64,000 nucleotides of DNA, taken from contig JACOEH010000001.1 of assembly GCA_024998685.1 (NCBI GenBank), positions 124,001 through 188,000 of the forward strand, in the 5' to 3' direction. The notes under the pieces were generated by a model. The model did not search any database, was not told the DNA's origin, and saw only the letters and a list, made by a program, of their open reading frames with translations. The position numbers and the translations under genes were made by a program. The stretch is from Nitrospira sp. (GTDB lineage Bacteria; Nitrospirota; Nitrospiria; Nitrospirales; Nitrospiraceae). Below are positions 1,570-61,127 of this stretch, piece by piece (position 1 is the stretch's first letter; the number at the start of each line of letters is the position of its first letter).

Positions 1570-4257
1570 TCACCGCTGCCAGGGTGCCTGGTCGGGTGTT
1601 CGGATATCAAGATCTTTCGCGGCTTGGCGAACGGTCTGCGCGTGTACGGCTCCGTCTCGGCGATGGAGAGCGTAGAGTGTCGCCACGACGAGATGCTCGG
1701 CATCGATCTCGAAGAACCGGCGCAGGGCCTTGCGGGTATCGCTCCGGCCGAATCCATCGGTACCGAGTGTCAGCAGGCCTCCCGGTACCCATGGAGCGAT
1801 CTGCTGGGGAACCATGCGAACATAGTCGCTCACCGCCACGCTGGGACCTTGAAACGTTTCGGCAGCCTGCTGAAGATAACTCTTTCGCGGCGGCTCGTCC
1901 GGATGCCGCATGTTCCACCGCTCGGCTTCAAGCGCCCGCATCCGCAACATCTTATAGCTCGTCACGCTCCATACGTCTGCCGCCACGCCGTAGCGTTCCA
2001 GCAACAGCTCTTGCGCCTTGAGCGCTTCGTTGACGAGCGGTCCGCTCGCCAACAACCGGGCTTTGTGCTGGGCTTCTTTGGGCGCCGGACGGAAGCAATA
2101 CATACCTTCGAGTATTCCCTCTTCTGTGTCGGGCGGCATGGCCGGCATGGGATAGGGTTCGTTGTAGAGCGTGATGTAATACAACCGATCCTCCTGACGC
2201 TGATACATCCGCCTCAGCCCGTCCTGCAGAATGACGGCGAGTTCGAACATAAATGCCGGATCATAGGCGGCGATCGTCGGATACGCATGAGCCAGTAAAT
2301 GGCTGTGCCCGTCCTGATGTTGCAAACCTTCGCCCTCCAACGTCGTACGCCCCGCTGTGGCCCCCAAGAGAAAGCCGCGGGCGCGCATGTCCGAGGCGGC
2401 CCACATCAAGTCTCCGATTCGCTGAAATCCGAACATCGAGTAAAAGATGTACAAGGGAATCGTGTTGAGTCCATGTGTCGCATAGGCTGTGGCGGCGGCG
2501 ATGAAGGAAGACATCGCGCCGGCTTCGGTGATGCCTTCTTCAAGGATCTGACCGTTCGTGGATTCGAAGTAATAGAGCAAGGAACTTTTGTCCGCCGGTT
2601 CATAGAGCTGACCGAGATGCGAATAGATGCCATATTGACGAAACAGCGCCTCGAGCCCGAACGTACGCGCTTCATCGGGAATGATCGGGACGAGATGTTT
2701 GCCGAACGGCTTGTGGCCCAAAAGGCGGCCCAACATGCGGGCGAAGCCCATCGTCGTGGAGGCGGCACGGTCTCCCGATCCTTCGAGAAACTCCTTGAAC
2801 TGATCGAGGCCCGGCGTCTCCAACGGCTCGACCTTCACCCGCCGCTTCGGAAGTGAACCACCCATGGTCTTTATCCGCTCGGCGAGGTAGGTCGCTTCCG
2901 GACTGTCGGCAGGCGGACGGAAAAACGGCGTCGAAGCGAGTTGTTCATCCGAGACGGGCACGCTGAATCGCGTGCGGAATTCGCGCAACTCCCGCTCATT
3001 CATCTTTTTCTGCTGATGGGTGATGTTGCGCCCTTCCCCGGCCTCTCCCAAGCCGTACCCTTTGATCGTCTTCGCGAGAATCACGGTCGGTTGACCTCGG
3101 TGTTCCACGGCGGCCTTGTAGGCGGCATAGACTTTCCGTGGATCGTGACCGCCGCGCAGCAGTTTGTGGATTTGTTCGTCGGAATAGGAGGCCACCATTT
3201 GAAGCAGGCGGGGATCGGCGCCGAAGAAATGTTTCCGAGCGAAGGCGCCGCCTTCCACCGTATATTTCTGATACCAGCCGTCGACGATCTCGCCCATCCG
3301 TCTCACCAGCAGCCCCTCGTCGTCCTGCGCCAACAACGGGTCCCAATCGCTTCCCCAAACCACCTTGATGACATTCCAACCCGCGCCTCGGAAGATGGAT
3401 TCGAGTTCTTGGATGATCTTGCCGTTGCCGCGGACCGGGCCGTCCAGGCGCTGAAGATTGCAGTTGACGACCCATATCAGATTATCCAACTGCTCGCGGG
3501 CCGCGAGCGTCAGCGCAGCCATGCTCTCCGGCTCATCCATTTCACCGTCGCCGACGAAGGCCCATACGCGCTGCCGGCCGGTATCTTTCAGGCCGCGATC
3601 CCGTAGGTACCGGTTGAAACGGGCCTGATAGATCGACATGATCGGGCCCAGGCCCATCGACACGGTCGGAAATTCCCAGTAGTCCGGCATCAGCCAAGGA
3701 TGCGGATAGGAGGACAAGCCCTTGCCCTCGCCGGTGAGCTCGCGCCGGAAGTGATGCAGCATCTCTTCTGAAAGTCGGCCCTCGATATAGCCACGCGCGT
3801 AGATCCCGGGGCTGGCATGCCCTTGGACATAGAGGAGGTCGCCGCCCTGCGGAGAATCTTTGCCGTGTAGAAAATGATTGAAGGCCACCTCATACAAGGT
3901 GGCCGCCGAAGCATAGGTCGAAATATGCCCGCCGATGCCGGAATGTTCTTTATTCGCTTTGACGACCATCGCCAGGGCGTTCCACCGAATGAGACTTCGG
4001 ATGCGACGCTCGAGCTCGAGGTTGCCGGGATAGGCCGGTTCCCGCTCGGCAGGAATCGTATTGATATACGGTGTGTTGGAGGAGCCGGCAATCCGCGCCC
4101 CTCGTTCACCAAGCCGATCGCGGAGACGATCGAAGAGATAGGTCGCCCGCTCGGTCCCTTTCGCCTGCAGTACGTACTCCAAAGAATCGAGCCACTCGCG
4201 GGTTTCCTGGGGGTCGGTATCAGACTGCGGTTGCGTACTGCGATGGTCGTCGCCCAC
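1570..4257 (-). CDS. aceE: Pyruvate dehydrogenase E1, homodimeric type
   Basis: Thiamine-diphosphate-dependent decarboxylase that oxidises pyruvate and acetylates the lipoyl arm of AceF. The ThDP motif is visible as GDGEMDEPES followed by NLQRLDGPVRGN, and the whole length fits the homodimeric AceE family (895 residues here, about 887 in E. coli). The reading frame is open 30 codons further upstream, but I chose the GTG at 4257 because a strong AAGGAGG lies 7 bases before it and the extra N-terminus has no family counterpart. It is followed by aceF on the same strand. Confidence 0.95.
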   Translation of the reverse strand: MGDDHRSTQPQSDTDPQETREWLDSLEYVLQAKGTERATYLFDRLRDRLGERGARIAGSSNTPYINTIPAEREPAYPGNLELERRIRSLIRWNALAMVVKANKEHSGIGGHISTYASAATLYEVAFNHFLHGKDSPQGGDLLYVQGHASPGIYARGYIEGRLSEEMLHHFRRELTGEGKGLSSYPHPWLMPDYWEFPTVSMGLGPIMSIYQARFNRYLRDRGLKDTGRQRVWAFVGDGEMDEPESMAALTLAAREQLDNLIWVVNCNLQRLDGPVRGNGKIIQELESIFRGAGWNVIKVVWGSDWDPLLAQDDEGLLVRRMGEIVDGWYQKYTVEGGAFARKHFFGADPRLLQMVASYSDEQIHKLLRGGHDPRKVYAAYKAAVEHRGQPTVILAKTIKGYGLGEAGEGRNITHQQKKMNERELREFRTRFSVPVSDEQLASTPFFRPPADSPEATYLAERIKTMGGSLPKRRVKVEPLETPGLDQFKEFLEGSGDRAASTTMGFARMLGRLLGHKPFGKHLVPIIPDEARTFGLEALFRQYGIYSHLGQLYEPADKSSLLYYFESTNGQILEEGITEAGAMSSFIAAATAYATHGLNTIPLYIFYSMFGFQRIGDLMWAASDMRARGFLLGATAGRTTLEGEGLQHQDGHSHLLAHAYPTIAAYDPAFMFELAVILQDGLRRMYQRQEDRLYYITLYNEPYPMPAMPPDTEEGILEGMYCFRPAPKEAQHKARLLASGPLVNEALKAQELLLERYGVAADVWSVTSYKMLRMRALEAERWNMRHPDEPPRKSYLQQAAETFQGPSVAVSDYVRMVPQQIAPWVPGGLLTLGTDGFGRSDTRKALRRFFEIDAEHLVVATLYALHRRDGAVHAQTVRQAAKDLDIRTPDQAPWQR

Positions 4258-4464: not shown

Positions 4465-4857
4465 ATGAAAAAGGCGCGGCATCGTACGGCTTCCAATACA
4501 GTACCCTCTTCCGCTACCCGTCAATCGCAGTTGGTGCCCCTGTCCTGCCCCGATTGTTTCGGTGTGCTACGGTTCGAGCGGGAAGGGCCGAGAGGGCATC
4601 TCGTCTACTGCTGCCAGGTGGATCATCGATATAGCCAGAGCAGTTTGCTCTATGCCAAGGAAGCGCAATTGGAACGGACCCTGTGGTCGGCCGCGCTGTT
4701 GTTGAAACAGATGGGGTATGCCTACCAGGATCTTCTCGAAGAAATAAAAAGTACAAGGGGCGCCGAACGAACCAGGGTGCGCCGACGCATCAACGAAGTG
4801 AGGAAGCAGGGCCTCGCGATTCGAGCGATGATCGAGACGACCCATGCCCTCCAATAA
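4465..4857 (+). CDS. Stand-alone CheB-type C-terminal metal-binding-like domain protein
   Basis: A 130-residue protein with CPDCFGVL near residue 43 and a following YCCQVDHRYS, then a helical segment (LERTLWSAALLLKQMG). This matches the tail usually fused to the C-terminus of single-domain CheB-like methylesterases (CP-x-CGG-x-L ... CRVGHAYS ... ALW). Here it is a separate gene placed before the methylesterase gene and overlapping it by 14 bases, so the normal order is reversed and split. The Cys/His pattern suggests metal binding, which is an inference. Function in isolation is unknown; translational coupling to the next gene is likely. Confidence 0.7.
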   Translation: MKKARHRTASNTVPSSATRQSQLVPLSCPDCFGVLRFEREGPRGHLVYCCQVDHRYSQSSLLYAKEAQLERTLWSAALLLKQMGYAYQDLLEEIKSTRGAERTRVRRRINEVRKQGLAIRAMIETTHALQ

Positions 4858-5505
4858 ACGCAGAGACTCCGGTCTATATAAGATCAGGCGTTCCGCCGTT
4901 AATGCCGAACGTATCAAGAGGGATATCATCGTGATCGGCGCATCCGCCGGCGGAGTCGTGACATTGACGGAGCTCTTCGCCTCATTTCCGCCTCATCTGG
5001 CGGCCGCCGTCTGCGTCGTCCTCCATCGCTCTCCCGAGAAGGGAGAGCTGGCCCACGTGTTGAGCCGCCGCTCGGCCTTGCCGGTGATCGAACCGGAGGG
5101 GAAACCGCCCTCAATTCCGGCCGCATTTATCTGGCTCCGCCGGACCATCATGTCTTGTTGACCTCGCAGGGAATCGCGATTCAACGCGGTCCGAAGGAGC
5201 ACAGCACCAGGCCGGCGATCGACGTCTTGTTCCGTACCGCAGCCGTGGCCCACGGGCCACGAGTGGTCGGGGTGCTGTTGACGGGCGCCGGAGAAGACGG
5301 TGTCAGCGGATTCATCGCCATATCCAGGGCGTCCGGCATCACGTTGACTCAAGATCCCGACGAAGCCTACATGCCCTACATGCCGCTCAATGCCTTGAAG
5401 ATGGATGATGTGGACGGTGTCTTACGCATCAAGGAGATGGCGCCGACCCTGACGGCGCTGGCTGCCGGAGAACCAGTCATCATGGCATCGAAGGAACCAA
5501 GGTGA
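4844..5505 (+). pseudogene. CheB-like protein-glutamate methylesterase, one frameshift
   Basis: The first frame gives IIVIGASAGGV, the start of the CheB methylesterase fold with the G-A-S-A-G catalytic serine region, and runs to about 5105. The second frame resumes with SGRIYLAPPDHHVLL (catalytic His region) and continues through GVLLTGAGEDGVSG to the stop at 5503-5505. One base is missing near 5100-5112 (around AAACCGCCCTCAATTCC); restoring it gives 220 residues, a normal length for a stand-alone CheB domain without receiver. It is therefore either a recent pseudogene or a sequencing error. Confidence 0.8.
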
Positions 5506-56732: not shown

Positions 56733-56793
56733 AGACTCGGGGCAACCAGACAGCCAAGTCGTACTCTTGCCAGGCGCGCTTTTGACCGCAACG
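56733..56793 (-). pseudogene. Histidine kinase 3'-end remnant
   Basis: The minus strand reads DLAVWLPRV, matching TFAVWLPES at the end of the kinase at 62925, with nucleotide matches such as GGGCAACCAGAC continuing through the adjoining bases. It shows that copy 1 of the 166-bp repeat once stood directly behind a kinase gene, as copy 2 does now. Confidence 0.6.
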
Positions 56794-56794
56794 T

Positions 56795-57267
56795 TTAATT
56801 TTCGCCTTTATCAGGCATGTTCAAGGGCGCTGCCCTTATGAGCTGCGATATGATCGGCTTGTCGCTTTTGATCTCGTACTGAGGATCGCCGATCCCCGCG
56901 CCGAGGATGAGGCGAGCATCTCGCGGATGCCATGCTCCGCAGCTTCGTGGATCGCGAACCAGTTGCGCCGACCTGTGGTGAGTGCGACGCGCTGGGGATC
57001 GATGTGTGTGAGGATCAAGCTCGCGTCGCGAACCGTTTGGGCTTCGATGGGCACGAAGAGAGCCGCCACATCGCCATTGTATCCGGCAGAACGGTCGACC
57101 CGACCTTTGGGTGTGAGGCGGCCGTAGAGCGGTTTTGCCGTATAGTGGCCCCGAAGCCGATCCTGTACCAGGAGATCGTGAAAATCGCGTCGATGCAATC
57201 GATAGCGAAAATAATAGGAAACTCGGGGAATCCGCCTCAACTCGTCGAGATCGAGATCGTCCAGCAT
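56795..57267 (-). pseudogene. Unrecognised protein, one frameshift, downstream of encapsulin
   Basis: The first frame (MLDDLDLDELRRIPRVSY ... WFAIHEAAEHGIREM) changes near 56910 to a second (DARLILGAGIGDPQYEI ... RAAPLNMPDKGEN). The total of 473 bases is one short of 158 codons, so a single-base deletion is the simplest reading. GGGAG lies 7 bases before ATG 57267. No family is recognised. It is the last gene of the DyP-encapsulin operon and, if restored, could be an additional cargo or a regulator. Confidence 0.55.
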
Positions 57268-57304
57268 CACTCAGCTCCCAATCCCGGATGGATGCGCCCA
57301 ACGT

Positions 57305-58110
57305 TCACTTTGACCCAGACACCAGGACTACGACAGCCTCGGTCGTCAGCAATCGGAACGTGAAGGTCTCCTGCAAGTACAATTCGACGACCGTCTTGGA
57401 ATGGCTCACGTAACCGATAGAGATGTCCTGCCCGATGTCTAATTCGAAATCATCGCCACGGGTCGTCAGCACCATCCCCCCTTCAATGGCTGGGGCCCAA
57501 ATGATCTCTCCATCGACAAGGCGCTGAATATGTTCAAGGAGGGGATATCCTTCGTCACTCCCCCCGCTGACGGCCTGGTACGGCCCTGCGCCCAGCAAGA
57601 GAGCGTAGGGGCCGTTGACGCCGGCGAGCCGCAATTGACTCACCGCCTGCGCGACCGCACCGGGATAACCCGTCACATTGGAAGGGAGCGTCACCGGCAG
57701 ATTGCTGCTGCCTTGACGGACGCCCTGAATTCCAGCGGCAGCATACCCATTGAAAACCGCGCGATCTTCCGCGAAGGCGATTTGCGCGCCGCCTCCTTCA
57801 GCGGCAACCAGTCCGAATCCGTTGCGCCACGTTCCACGTCGTCAATCGCCTGGCGCGTGAGTTCGAACGGAACGCGCAATTCGACGAGCGCGTTCGCCTC
57901 GCGCTGTGCGGCCTGGATCCCATCGCCGGGTGCTTGGATCTGGTGGAGATGACCGGTGCCGACAGCCGAAAGGTCGAAGCCCTTCGGACCCTGCACGTCT
58001 ACGACCCGCCGAGCCGCCAAGTGTCGCTTGAGAGTGCGAGACGCTTCCTCTTCGATTTGAGTCCAAGCTTTGTCGGAGATAGGGGCGAGTTCCCGATGGA
58101 GATTATTCAT
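57305..58110 (-). pseudogene. Encapsulin shell protein (family 1), one frameshift
   Basis: The N-terminal frame begins MNNLHRELAPISDKAWTQIE and has the family marks RRVVDVQGPKG, LSAVGTGHL and ELRVPFELTRQAIDDVERGA. Near 57777-57796 (GGCGGCGCGCAAATCGCC on the minus strand) one base is missing. The second frame then gives AFAEDRAVFNGYAAAGIQGV, DGEIIWAPAIEGGMVLTTRG and DISIGYVSH to the stop. The 806 bases are one short of 269 codons, the usual size of this HK97-fold shell (about 265-270 residues). Its ATG overlaps the DyP stop by 8 bases. As written, only the first 107 residues would be made in the correct frame. Confidence 0.88.
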
Positions 58111-59167
58111 ATCCTGCCTCTTTCTTCAGCGAACCAATACCGAGTGAACCGTCTGGCGGAGACAATCGCGATGCGGACTTGTCCCCAGCCTCGCGTTTGT
58201 TGGAGGTTGGGCCCGCCATCGAAGGGGCCGCTTCCCCTGTTGAAACATTTTCCAGGAACGTCGCGGACGGCACAAAAAACAGCGTACCGGTCACGGCGCG
58301 ACTAAAGTCCAGTAGCCGGTCATAGTTCCCCGGTGGCCGACCGACGAACATGTTCACGAGCATCTGCTCGATCCTGTGTGGTGACCGGGCATAGCCGATG
58401 AAATAGGTGCCGAATTCCCCTTTTCCCACGTCCCCGAACGGCATGTTGTCGCGCAGAATCTCCAGTTGCTTTCCGTCTTCGATAATCGTCGTCAACGCGT
58501 TGTGTGCCGAGGTCGGCTTCACGGCATCGTCGAGTTCGACGTCGGAGAGTTTGGTTCGGCCGATGATCCGCTCCTGTTCTTCAATAGGGAGCGCATTCCA
58601 GCCCTTCACATCGTGAAGGTACTTCTGGACGGTTACATAGCTCCCCCCGGCAAACGCGGCATCCTCCTCGCCGATGATGGTGGCGTCGACAGCGGCCTGT
58701 TCCACCGGATTCTCCGTCCCATCGACGAATCCGATCAAGTCGCGGTCATCGAAGTAGTTGAAACCGTGCACCTCATCCACCGCGGAAACAGCGCCGTCGA
58801 GCCGTGACATGATCTGTGTCGCCAGTTCGAAGCAGAGATCCATGCGCTTCTTGGACCGGATATGAAAGAGGATGTCACCCGGCGTTGCGACGGCGTGATG
58901 GCGGCCGTGGATCTCACGGAACGGATGCAGGTCTTTCGGTTTCGGCGCTCCAAAGAGTCGATCCCATGCGTCGGAGCCGAACGCCATGACACATGACAGC
59001 CGACCCTCGAGGTCACGGAAGCCCACTGCGCGCAGGAGCGCGGCCAAATCACCGCACAAGGTCCGAACCGCAGCTTCATTGTTCCGTCCGGGGTTGACGG
59101 TCACGACGAGAAAAATAGCGGCCCGCGTGAGCGGGGCAACGACGGGTTGTGGAACGAGGGATGGCAT
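58103..59167 (-). CDS. Dye-decolorizing peroxidase with encapsulin cargo-loading peptide
   Basis: A 354-residue heme peroxidase of the DyP family. The catalytic GxxDG motif is in LIGFVDGTENP, and the proximal heme His is probably in KPTSAHNA. After the catalytic domain comes a flexible tail ending DGSLGIGSLKKEAG, which matches the loading peptide that directs DyP enzymes into encapsulin shells. Start ATG 59167 is preceded by AAGGAG at 6 bases; the further upstream codons run into the next gene. It overlaps the encapsulin gene by 8 bases, as expected for cargo and shell. Confidence 0.95.
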   Translation of the reverse strand: MPSLVPQPVVAPLTRAAIFLVVTVNPGRNNEAAVRTLCGDLAALLRAVGFRDLEGRLSCVMAFGSDAWDRLFGAPKPKDLHPFREIHGRHHAVATPGDILFHIRSKKRMDLCFELATQIMSRLDGAVSAVDEVHGFNYFDDRDLIGFVDGTENPVEQAAVDATIIGEEDAAFAGGSYVTVQKYLHDVKGWNALPIEEQERIIGRTKLSDVELDDAVKPTSAHNALTTIIEDGKQLEILRDNMPFGDVGKGEFGTYFIGYARSPHRIEQMLVNMFVGRPPGNYDRLLDFSRAVTGTLFFVPSATFLENVSTGEAAPSMAGPTSNKREAGDKSASRLSPPDGSLGIGSLKKEAGYE

Positions 59168-59177
59168 ACGTGACTCC

Positions 59178-59789
59178 TTACTGACTTGTTCGAAGTTGCC
59201 GATCGACGCTTTTGGGCGGGGAGCCATGCCAGCCCTTGATCGCCGTTCGGAGTGTCTCTTCACCGCCAAACATGACATCCATGATTTGATCCGTCTCATC
59301 GATCAAGAACACGGCAGGTTGTCTGATCGGGACGCCTGCCATCTTGCTCCGGATGAGTGGGCGCACACGATAGGCATGCTCTCCTCCGCCATCACGTTGC
59401 ACCACTGCCCATTCCTGGTCTACAACCAGCGGCTGCGCCAGTCGGCCCCGCACGATCTGATGGAAGCCCGAATCTCCGACGCGGTGGTACCCGACCGCCA
59501 CATTCTGCTCATTGACGACGATGTGCAATCGATCGCCTTTCTTCAGCGGCCAGACGCCTTTTTCTTGCGCTTCCTTGGCGGACAGATAGCGCGGTTCCAC
59601 ATCATCCGCATCCATCTTGACTTGAACCTGATCGCCACGGATGTCCGTGACGGTGCCGACGATGACGCGATCATCCGGCAACAGCACCATCTGGCCCAGC
59701 GCGTATGGCGCGTGCAAGACTAACAGGCCGGCAAAGACCCACCTCCGGCGATAATATCGATATCGCAATGACGACGATGTGTGTTCCAT
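59178..59789 (-). CDS. Exported hypothetical protein of the DyP operon
   Basis: A 203-residue protein with an N-terminal hydrophobic segment (WVFAGLLVLHAPYALG) and a beta-rich mature part (VIVGTVTDIRGDQVQVKM, KKGDRLHIVVNEQNVAVG). The pattern resembles repeated SH3/OB-like barrels, but no family is recognised. It ends 10 bases before the DyP start and is probably co-transcribed. Confidence 0.6.
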   Translation of the reverse strand: MEHTSSSLRYRYYRRRWVFAGLLVLHAPYALGQMVLLPDDRVIVGTVTDIRGDQVQVKMDADDVEPRYLSAKEAQEKGVWPLKKGDRLHIVVNEQNVAVGYHRVGDSGFHQIVRGRLAQPLVVDQEWAVVQRDGGGEHAYRVRPLIRSKMAGVPIRQPAVFLIDETDQIMDVMFGGEETLRTAIKGWHGSPPKSVDRQLRTSQ

Positions 59790-59822: not shown

Positions 59823-60392
59823 TCAGCGGATGATTTCGCGGTTATCGAGTTTCTGCGGGGGCAACCGATCCACCACCTGCAAGTGATTGCTCACTTTCTT
59901 GACCCCTTGGACGCCCTGAGCCGCTTTTTCGGCTGCATTCTTCGAGCGGTCGTCGAGAACATCGCCCTTGAGGGTCACTTCGCCCTGACGCACGGAGATT
60001 CGGACGGTTGGATTCTTTTCGAGCGCAGGCGTCTGCTTAAAAACTTCCCAGACATCCCGTCTGATCTTGTAGTCCGGTGCAAGTGCCACATCCACGATCA
60101 CACTGTTTCTCACGTTCAGCACATCCGGTACCGTGCCGGCGATCGTCTCGGCCCAGCCTTTTTCCTCCGGACTTGCAACTTCACCGAATAACGTGACGTT
60201 GCCCTTGTCGACATTGACGCGCAACATTTCCCAATTGATGCGACCGTCCTCCCGCAATTGCAGTTCGATCTTAGACCGGACCGTTTCATCGGACACATTG
60301 GATTCCGTCGCGGCAAAAAGTGCTGCCGGCGTGACAACGCCTATCCACAGTAAGACGCTCGCCCAGATTACTCTCTCATTTAACTTCCACAT
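59823..60392 (-). CDS. Exported protein with two BON domains
   Basis: A 189-residue periplasmic protein. The signal peptide is VIWASVLLWIGVVTPAALFA, followed by BON domains at about 30-100 (GNVTLFGEVASPEEKGWAE) and 105-185 (QGEVTLKGDVLDDRSKNAAE). GAGGAG lies before ATG 60392. BON proteins hold lipids and stabilise the envelope under stress. It precedes the exported hypothetical gene by 33 bases and follows a helical exported protein. Confidence 0.87.
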   Translation of the reverse strand: MWKLNERVIWASVLLWIGVVTPAALFAATESNVSDETVRSKIELQLREDGRINWEMLRVNVDKGNVTLFGEVASPEEKGWAETIAGTVPDVLNVRNSVIVDVALAPDYKIRRDVWEVFKQTPALEKNPTVRISVRQGEVTLKGDVLDDRSKNAAEKAAQGVQGVKKVSNHLQVVDRLPPQKLDNREIIR

Positions 60393-60440
60393 GGTTGTTC
60401 TCCTCACTGTGTCCATGAATAGTGTCGCGGACCTCGTCGA

Positions 60441-61127
60441 TCATGAGGCTTTCACCGGTGCGATCTTCTTTCCGAATTTTTCGATCTCCTCTCCGACATC
60501 CTCAATCCCTTTGCCGACCTCGTCGGCTGCCCAGTCTGCGCCTTTCATCATTTTTCCGGCGAGTAGGCGTGTGGCCTTAATGGTCTTGGCCCCGGCGGCT
60601 TCCGCTTTATGTCCGGCCCAGATCAAGCCTTGATCAAAATGCACTGCCGCCGCTTGCAGATCCTGTCCGACCTTGCGGGCCGCTTGCTCGGCATGGTTCG
60701 TCCAAGATTCTTTAGCCTTCAGATGATGGTGGTGAGCAAGGGCCTGGTGAGCACGAGCAAAGGCCTCATCGAGCCGCTTCACGGAGGTGATGGTGCCATG
60801 TTCGACGTCCTCTGCCAGTTTGGCCAATTCATGGCCGGATTCTTCCATCAGCTTCTTTCCCTCCTCCGTAGCCCGGCCCGCTTCCAGTTTCAGAAAGGTC
60901 TCGCCCTTTCGGATTTCTGCAGCCGCCTTTTTCAGATCCTTTTTCAGAAAGGATTTGTGAGCTCGATGGAAATGTTCTTCCGGCTCGTCATCGACGACAA
61001 GCCACACTTCCTCGTCGACAAGGAGATAGCCCTCAGGAGCTTTCGACGGTGTTGATTCGGCTCCAGCCCCTACAGGCATCATTCCGATTGTGACCGCCAT
61101 CGCAAGTCTACACAGGGTCGAACGCAT
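60441..61127 (-). CDS. Exported helical protein
   Basis: A 228-residue protein with a signal peptide (LAMAVTIGMMPVGAGAES) and a mature part that is almost all helical and highly charged (HRAHKSFLKKDLKKAAAEIR; LDEAFARAHQALAHHHHLKA; GKGIEDVGEEIEKFGKKI). The overall plan resembles YfdX-like acid-stress proteins but I cannot confirm the family. It heads the gene series that ends with DyP and encapsulin. Confidence 0.6.
   Translation of the reverse strand: MRSTLCRLAMAVTIGMMPVGAGAESTPSKAPEGYLLVDEEVWLVVDDEPEEHFHRAHKSFLKKDLKKAAAEIRKGETFLKLEAGRATEEGKKLMEESGHELAKLAEDVEHGTITSVKRLDEAFARAHQALAHHHHLKAKESWTNHAEQAARKVGQDLQAAAVHFDQGLIWAGHKAEAAGAKTIKATRLLAGKMMKGADWAADEVGKGIEDVGEEIEKFGKKIAPVKAS

Follow-up and report, generated by a model that had tools for sequence, protein, structure and literature searches.

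The closest described relatives of the locus analysed here are the FDH-DyP-Enc(-RpoH) operons of enterobacteria (Klebsiella, E. coli; PMC10960027, PMC12140327; PDB 8u50, 8u4z, 9e5e), which occur on mobile elements and in which a formate dehydrogenase (FDH) gene is located upstream of the gene for a DyP-type peroxidase (PMC10960027, PMC12140327). GSLxIGSLK is the reported motif of encapsulin-associated DyPs (PMC10960027). The homologous operon in the 64,000-nucleotide stretch of Nitrospira DNA that we analysed (the window) belongs to this already known kind of system: it shares the family 1 shell, the DyP gene order and the GSLxIGSLK peptide, and in both Nitrospira relatives that carry it (genomes G023 and G001) FDH is found immediately before DyP. 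Unlike the enterobacterial operons, the window copy resides in a Nitrospira chromosome, has lost FDH and has a frameshifted shell gene; of the genes that lie downstream, none was recognized as RpoH-like.

The nearest relatives that we found outside Nitrospira are the operons of two gammaproteobacterial MAGs, JOPF214 and JOPF060 (L014 and L015), with the same FDH-DyP-shell order as in the Nitrospira relatives and with identities of 79–83% for the shell and 79–81% for DyP. In contrast to the window copy, both are intact, and they lack the small gene that follows the shell in Nitrospira (gene 3, see below). The host is a nitrite-oxidising Nitrospira. The benefit of encapsulation to DyP is still debated. 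We consider it probable that a copy of the known mobile FDH-DyP-encapsulin operon, acquired horizontally, is decaying in the Nitrospira chromosome, with the shell reduced to a pseudogene and DyP kept and used in free form.

Cargo and shell genes of the window operon

The DyP gene (58103..59167, minus strand) encodes an intact protein of 354 aa, in whose complete frame both Dyp_perox_N and Dyp_perox_C are near full length (Pfam PF04261 and PF20628). Its closest solved structure is the Klebsiella encapsulin-associated DyP (8u4z, E-value 1.9e-148). The translated C-terminal region (58103..58147, minus strand) ends with ...DGSLGIGSLKKEAGYE and includes GSLGIGSLK, a sequence present in the DyPs of the window, G023 and G001 alike. 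It fits the published GSLxIGSLK motif, in agreement with an earlier note on this DNA, which had interpreted the DyP terminus as an encapsulin loading peptide, i.e. a targeting (cargo-loading) peptide. The 8-base overlap between DyP and the shell gene reported in the same note is also present, as the DyP stop is at 58103 and the shell ATG at 58110. The locus therefore has what characterizes DyP-type family 1 encapsulins, a cargo DyP with C-terminal GSLxIGSLK in an operon with a shell.

The shell gene itself, a family 1 encapsulin (57305-58110, minus strand), is split over two frames. Its 5' part (57691..58110, minus strand; PF04454, E-value 4.5e-40) is an open frame of 139 aa, composed of the native residues 1-110 (57781-58110) and 29 out-of-frame residues, and terminated by TGA at 57691-57693. 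The 3' part (57305..57780, minus strand) follows in the next frame and is likewise recognized by PF04454 and encap_f1, with E-values of 1.9e-45 for PF04454 and 1.7e-53 for NCBIfam encap_f1 over 57305-57754; both halves exceed the curated cut-offs for HK97-type Linocin_M18 / encap_f1. Alignment with G023 and G001 places the frameshift at 57781..57783 (minus strand), where the window reads GCGCGC-AAA-TCGCC and both relatives read GCGCGC-AAAA-TCGCC (codons AAA ATC). This single missing base accounts for the one that the earlier note had predicted to be needed near 57777-57796. A single open shell frame of ~265-270 codons is found in G023 (268 aa) and not in the window, and the KIAFAED frame is open in 10 of 10 non-Nitrospira relatives.

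A search of the window genome for a second shell copy found none. The one-base deletion after codon 110 would leave only a 139-aa fragment without most of the HK97-type fold, and judging from the sequence, no shell is likely to be assembled in this organism. Apart from the frameshift, the window shell departs from the invariant residues of the family only at three positions (A17T, D121N and G220D), and with so few departures the break must have arisen very recently or else be an artefact. An intact shell allele may exist in other strains of the species.

Neighbouring genes and deletions

In G023 and G001, the gene directly upstream of DyP encodes a 313-aa protein of the 2-hydroxyacid-dehydrogenase family, which matches the FDH of the enterobacterial operons. 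FDH is found directly before DyP in G023, G001, L014 and L015; the window has none, and its place is taken by a 203-aa exported protein from a Nitrospira-wide family (59178..59789, minus strand). Farther upstream are a BON-domain protein (59823..60416, minus strand; PF04972, E-value 5.2e-26) and a 228-aa exported protein (60441..61127, minus strand), each at ~94% DNA identity and syntenic in the relatives, where FDH separates them from DyP. These two are native Nitrospira genes at the operon insertion site. Thus, the earlier note correctly described three exported or BON genes preceding DyP, but its view of this context as unusual for an encapsulin does not hold: the apparent oddity results from native synteny around an acquired operon minus its FDH gene.

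On the other side of the shell, gene 3 (56836..57270, minus strand) encodes a small protein with matches at 99% and 90% identity. Its residues 1-122 align with the 128-aa gene of the relatives with no stop and no change of frame, so the previous claim that the gene behind the shell also needs an added base has to be abandoned; gene 3 is native up to residue 122, and its 3' end has been replaced. We rejected GDPQYEIKSDK... as the restored C-terminus of gene 3, as it corresponds to what is left of the 3' end of another gene, located two places downstream in the relatives. This relict (56789..56888, minus strand; 89% DNA identity to L009 8403-8503) is the end of a gene which, from its sequence, we take to be HVA1/DUF2945-like, and which lies two genes farther on in G023 and G001. 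The deletion junction, at ~56889-56912, fuses gene 3 to the relict, and the deletion of ~0.66 kb removed the end of gene 3, a DUF488 gene and most of the HVA1-like gene. Deletions have therefore taken FDH on the upstream side of the window operon and two genes on its downstream side.

We also considered whether gene 3 might be a further cargo, or else a conserved member of the operon, and rejected both possibilities because homologs are absent from all 10 non-Nitrospira genomes with closely related operons, a Pfam search gave no match, and the C-terminus has no targeting peptide. The family occurs in the three Nitrospira and on a conjugative plasmid of Agrobacterium, whose copy is the nearest outside homolog (49% identity) and adjoins genes of the uracil-DNA glycosylase family and DUF488. 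Gene 3 is a neighbour of the encapsulin operon and not its cargo.

Origin of the shell frameshift

The earlier note had offered compartment loss, recoding and a read error as alternatives, among which recent loss is now the best supported and the other two are unlikely. The more serious of the competing explanations, although we regard it as improbable, is that the base is missing through an error in reading or assembly, or only from a minority allele, and that the operon in the organism is ordinary and intact. It would be in keeping with the loss of a single base within a short A run, with the good preservation of the remainder of the shell, and with a second single-base frame break on the same contig, in a presumably CheB-like gene at 5098-5101. 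However, the window is located on contig 94 of an assembly of 4.83 Mb in 105 contigs, three ends of which have identical terminal 53-55 bases, while two further contig pairs have 50-52 bases in common near their ends; contigs that break at ~50-base repeats indicate de Bruijn assembly of short reads. Homopolymers as short as three or four bases seldom come out with a wrong length in assemblies of this type, and this applies to the three-base A run of the shell. Moreover, our survey of frame breaks, made on fetched stretches of the genomes, revealed 4 per 157,827 aligned coding bases in the window assembly, with just two mid-gene breaks per 158 kb (those in the shell and the CheB-like gene), and 5 per 155,013 bases in G023, at least 2 of which are antisense reflections of breaks in the window genome. 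So few breaks imply that the window genome is not peppered with indels, of which homopolymer errors would give more. The operon has also been harmed in other ways, by the deletion of neighbouring genes. A read error is thus an unlikely source of the frameshift, and from these comparisons we infer that the one-base deletion is probably genuine in the organism and not an artefact.

Recoding, by programmed -1 frameshifting or transcriptional slippage, could in principle produce the full shell, or truncated and full forms together, as the -1 frame stays open from 57841 onward and overlaps the native frame by ~150 bases. We find this very hard to accept, as the whole shell contains zero canonical X XXY YYZ slippery heptamers, runs of at least 6 bases are limited to two GGGGGG stretches located past the overlap, and the shell is encoded in a single frame in all relatives. 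Nor do we give real credence to a shell functioning as two separate chains translationally coupled at the overlapping GTGA (57691-57694), where the first-frame TGA shares bases with a GTG from which a C-terminal frame of 129 aa starts: in the sequence of the relatives this GTG simply encodes a conserved valine, and the two pieces together would be missing native residues 111 to ~139 (IAFAEDRAVFDGYAAAGIQG...), which belong to the best-conserved residues of the family. The reading that the compartment was lost recently is favoured by the short-read style of the assembly, the low rate of frame breaks and the lack of a slippery site, as well as by the relaxed shell, the constrained DyP and the independent lesions in both sister operons that are described below.

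Selection and the fate of the operon in Nitrospira

For the part of the shell beyond the frameshift point, the three Nitrospira copies give pairwise dN/dS values of 0.34-0.46. Control genes nearby give 0.14-0.28 and DyP gives 0.15-0.22, and the values among other bacteria are 0.035-0.21. Changes assigned to the window lineage are 25 synonymous and 5 nonsynonymous in DyP, and 11 synonymous and 7 nonsynonymous in the shell, a contrast on the window branch that is not significant (Fisher p = 0.10). These values are only suggestive of a constrained cargo DyP and a relaxed shell. If the decay of the shell has proceeded as we propose, the intact and constrained DyP would work as a free cytoplasmic peroxidase, and its targeting peptide would now be a relic. 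Employment of DyP in free form, without a compartment, is the most likely situation, and we infer from its sequence that the enzyme would be active in that state. Selection on the cargo during decay of the shell would argue that the peroxidase is useful without its compartment. It would also mean that a tally of DyP genes carrying a targeting peptide puts the number of working nanocompartments too high.

Analysis of the phylogenetic distribution reveals encapsulin in 3 of the 79 genomes of the genus, at a locus common to all three. The closest shell relatives outside the genus are from Gammaproteobacteria and Bradyrhizobiaceae (70-84% shell identity), which points to a single horizontal acquisition as the most likely origin of the operon. 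Both sister copies carry lesions of their own. In the complete genome of G023 (L009 10359-11354), a loss of 71 bp has taken the start codon and the first residues of DyP, leaving a GTG-started frame of 321 aa, and the adjoining 268-aa shell and the targeting peptide are intact. In G001, the DyP gene is complete, and the shell beside it (L010, G001:C105, minus strand, 2195-3103) is interrupted after residue 127 by a 102-bp in-frame palindromic repeat, a 34-residue insertion with the hairpins CCCCGCAGCAAGCTGCGGGG and CCCCGTAGCGAGCTACGGGG. Partial copies of this repeat are present in the window genome, some of them at contig ends. The structure predicted by AlphaFold for this shell, insertion included, is too poor for use (mean pLDDT 42).

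It is conceivable, although we put this forward with some doubt, that three species with one acquired operon each broke a different component, and that encapsulation of DyP is dispensable in Nitrospira. If so, the three strains would form a natural series that bears on the contribution of the shell and on a DyP that has a targeting peptide and no shell. The matched intact and broken operons, with ~90-94% DNA identity, could be used for a direct test.

Our literature search for frameshifted or pseudogene encapsulins returned no relevant paper. Possible parallels are found on plasmids of Sphingomonas hankookensis (pSZ.B2R2_1, L070) and Shinella sumterensis (UPHL-collab-3, L071), in which DyP is annotated and the shell is unannotated and spread over two frames. 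Their apparent shell breaks are located elsewhere than in the window, at about residues 69-84 and 146-149, and suggest that shell loss with retention of the cargo may be recurrent.

Outside the operon, the window gene at 4844-5502, which from its sequence we take to encode a CheB-like methylesterase, has a single-base frame break at ~5098-5101 relative to G023. The gene for a TolC-like outer-membrane efflux protein at 50815-52422 matches two tandem paralogs in G023, with 88% and 79% identity.
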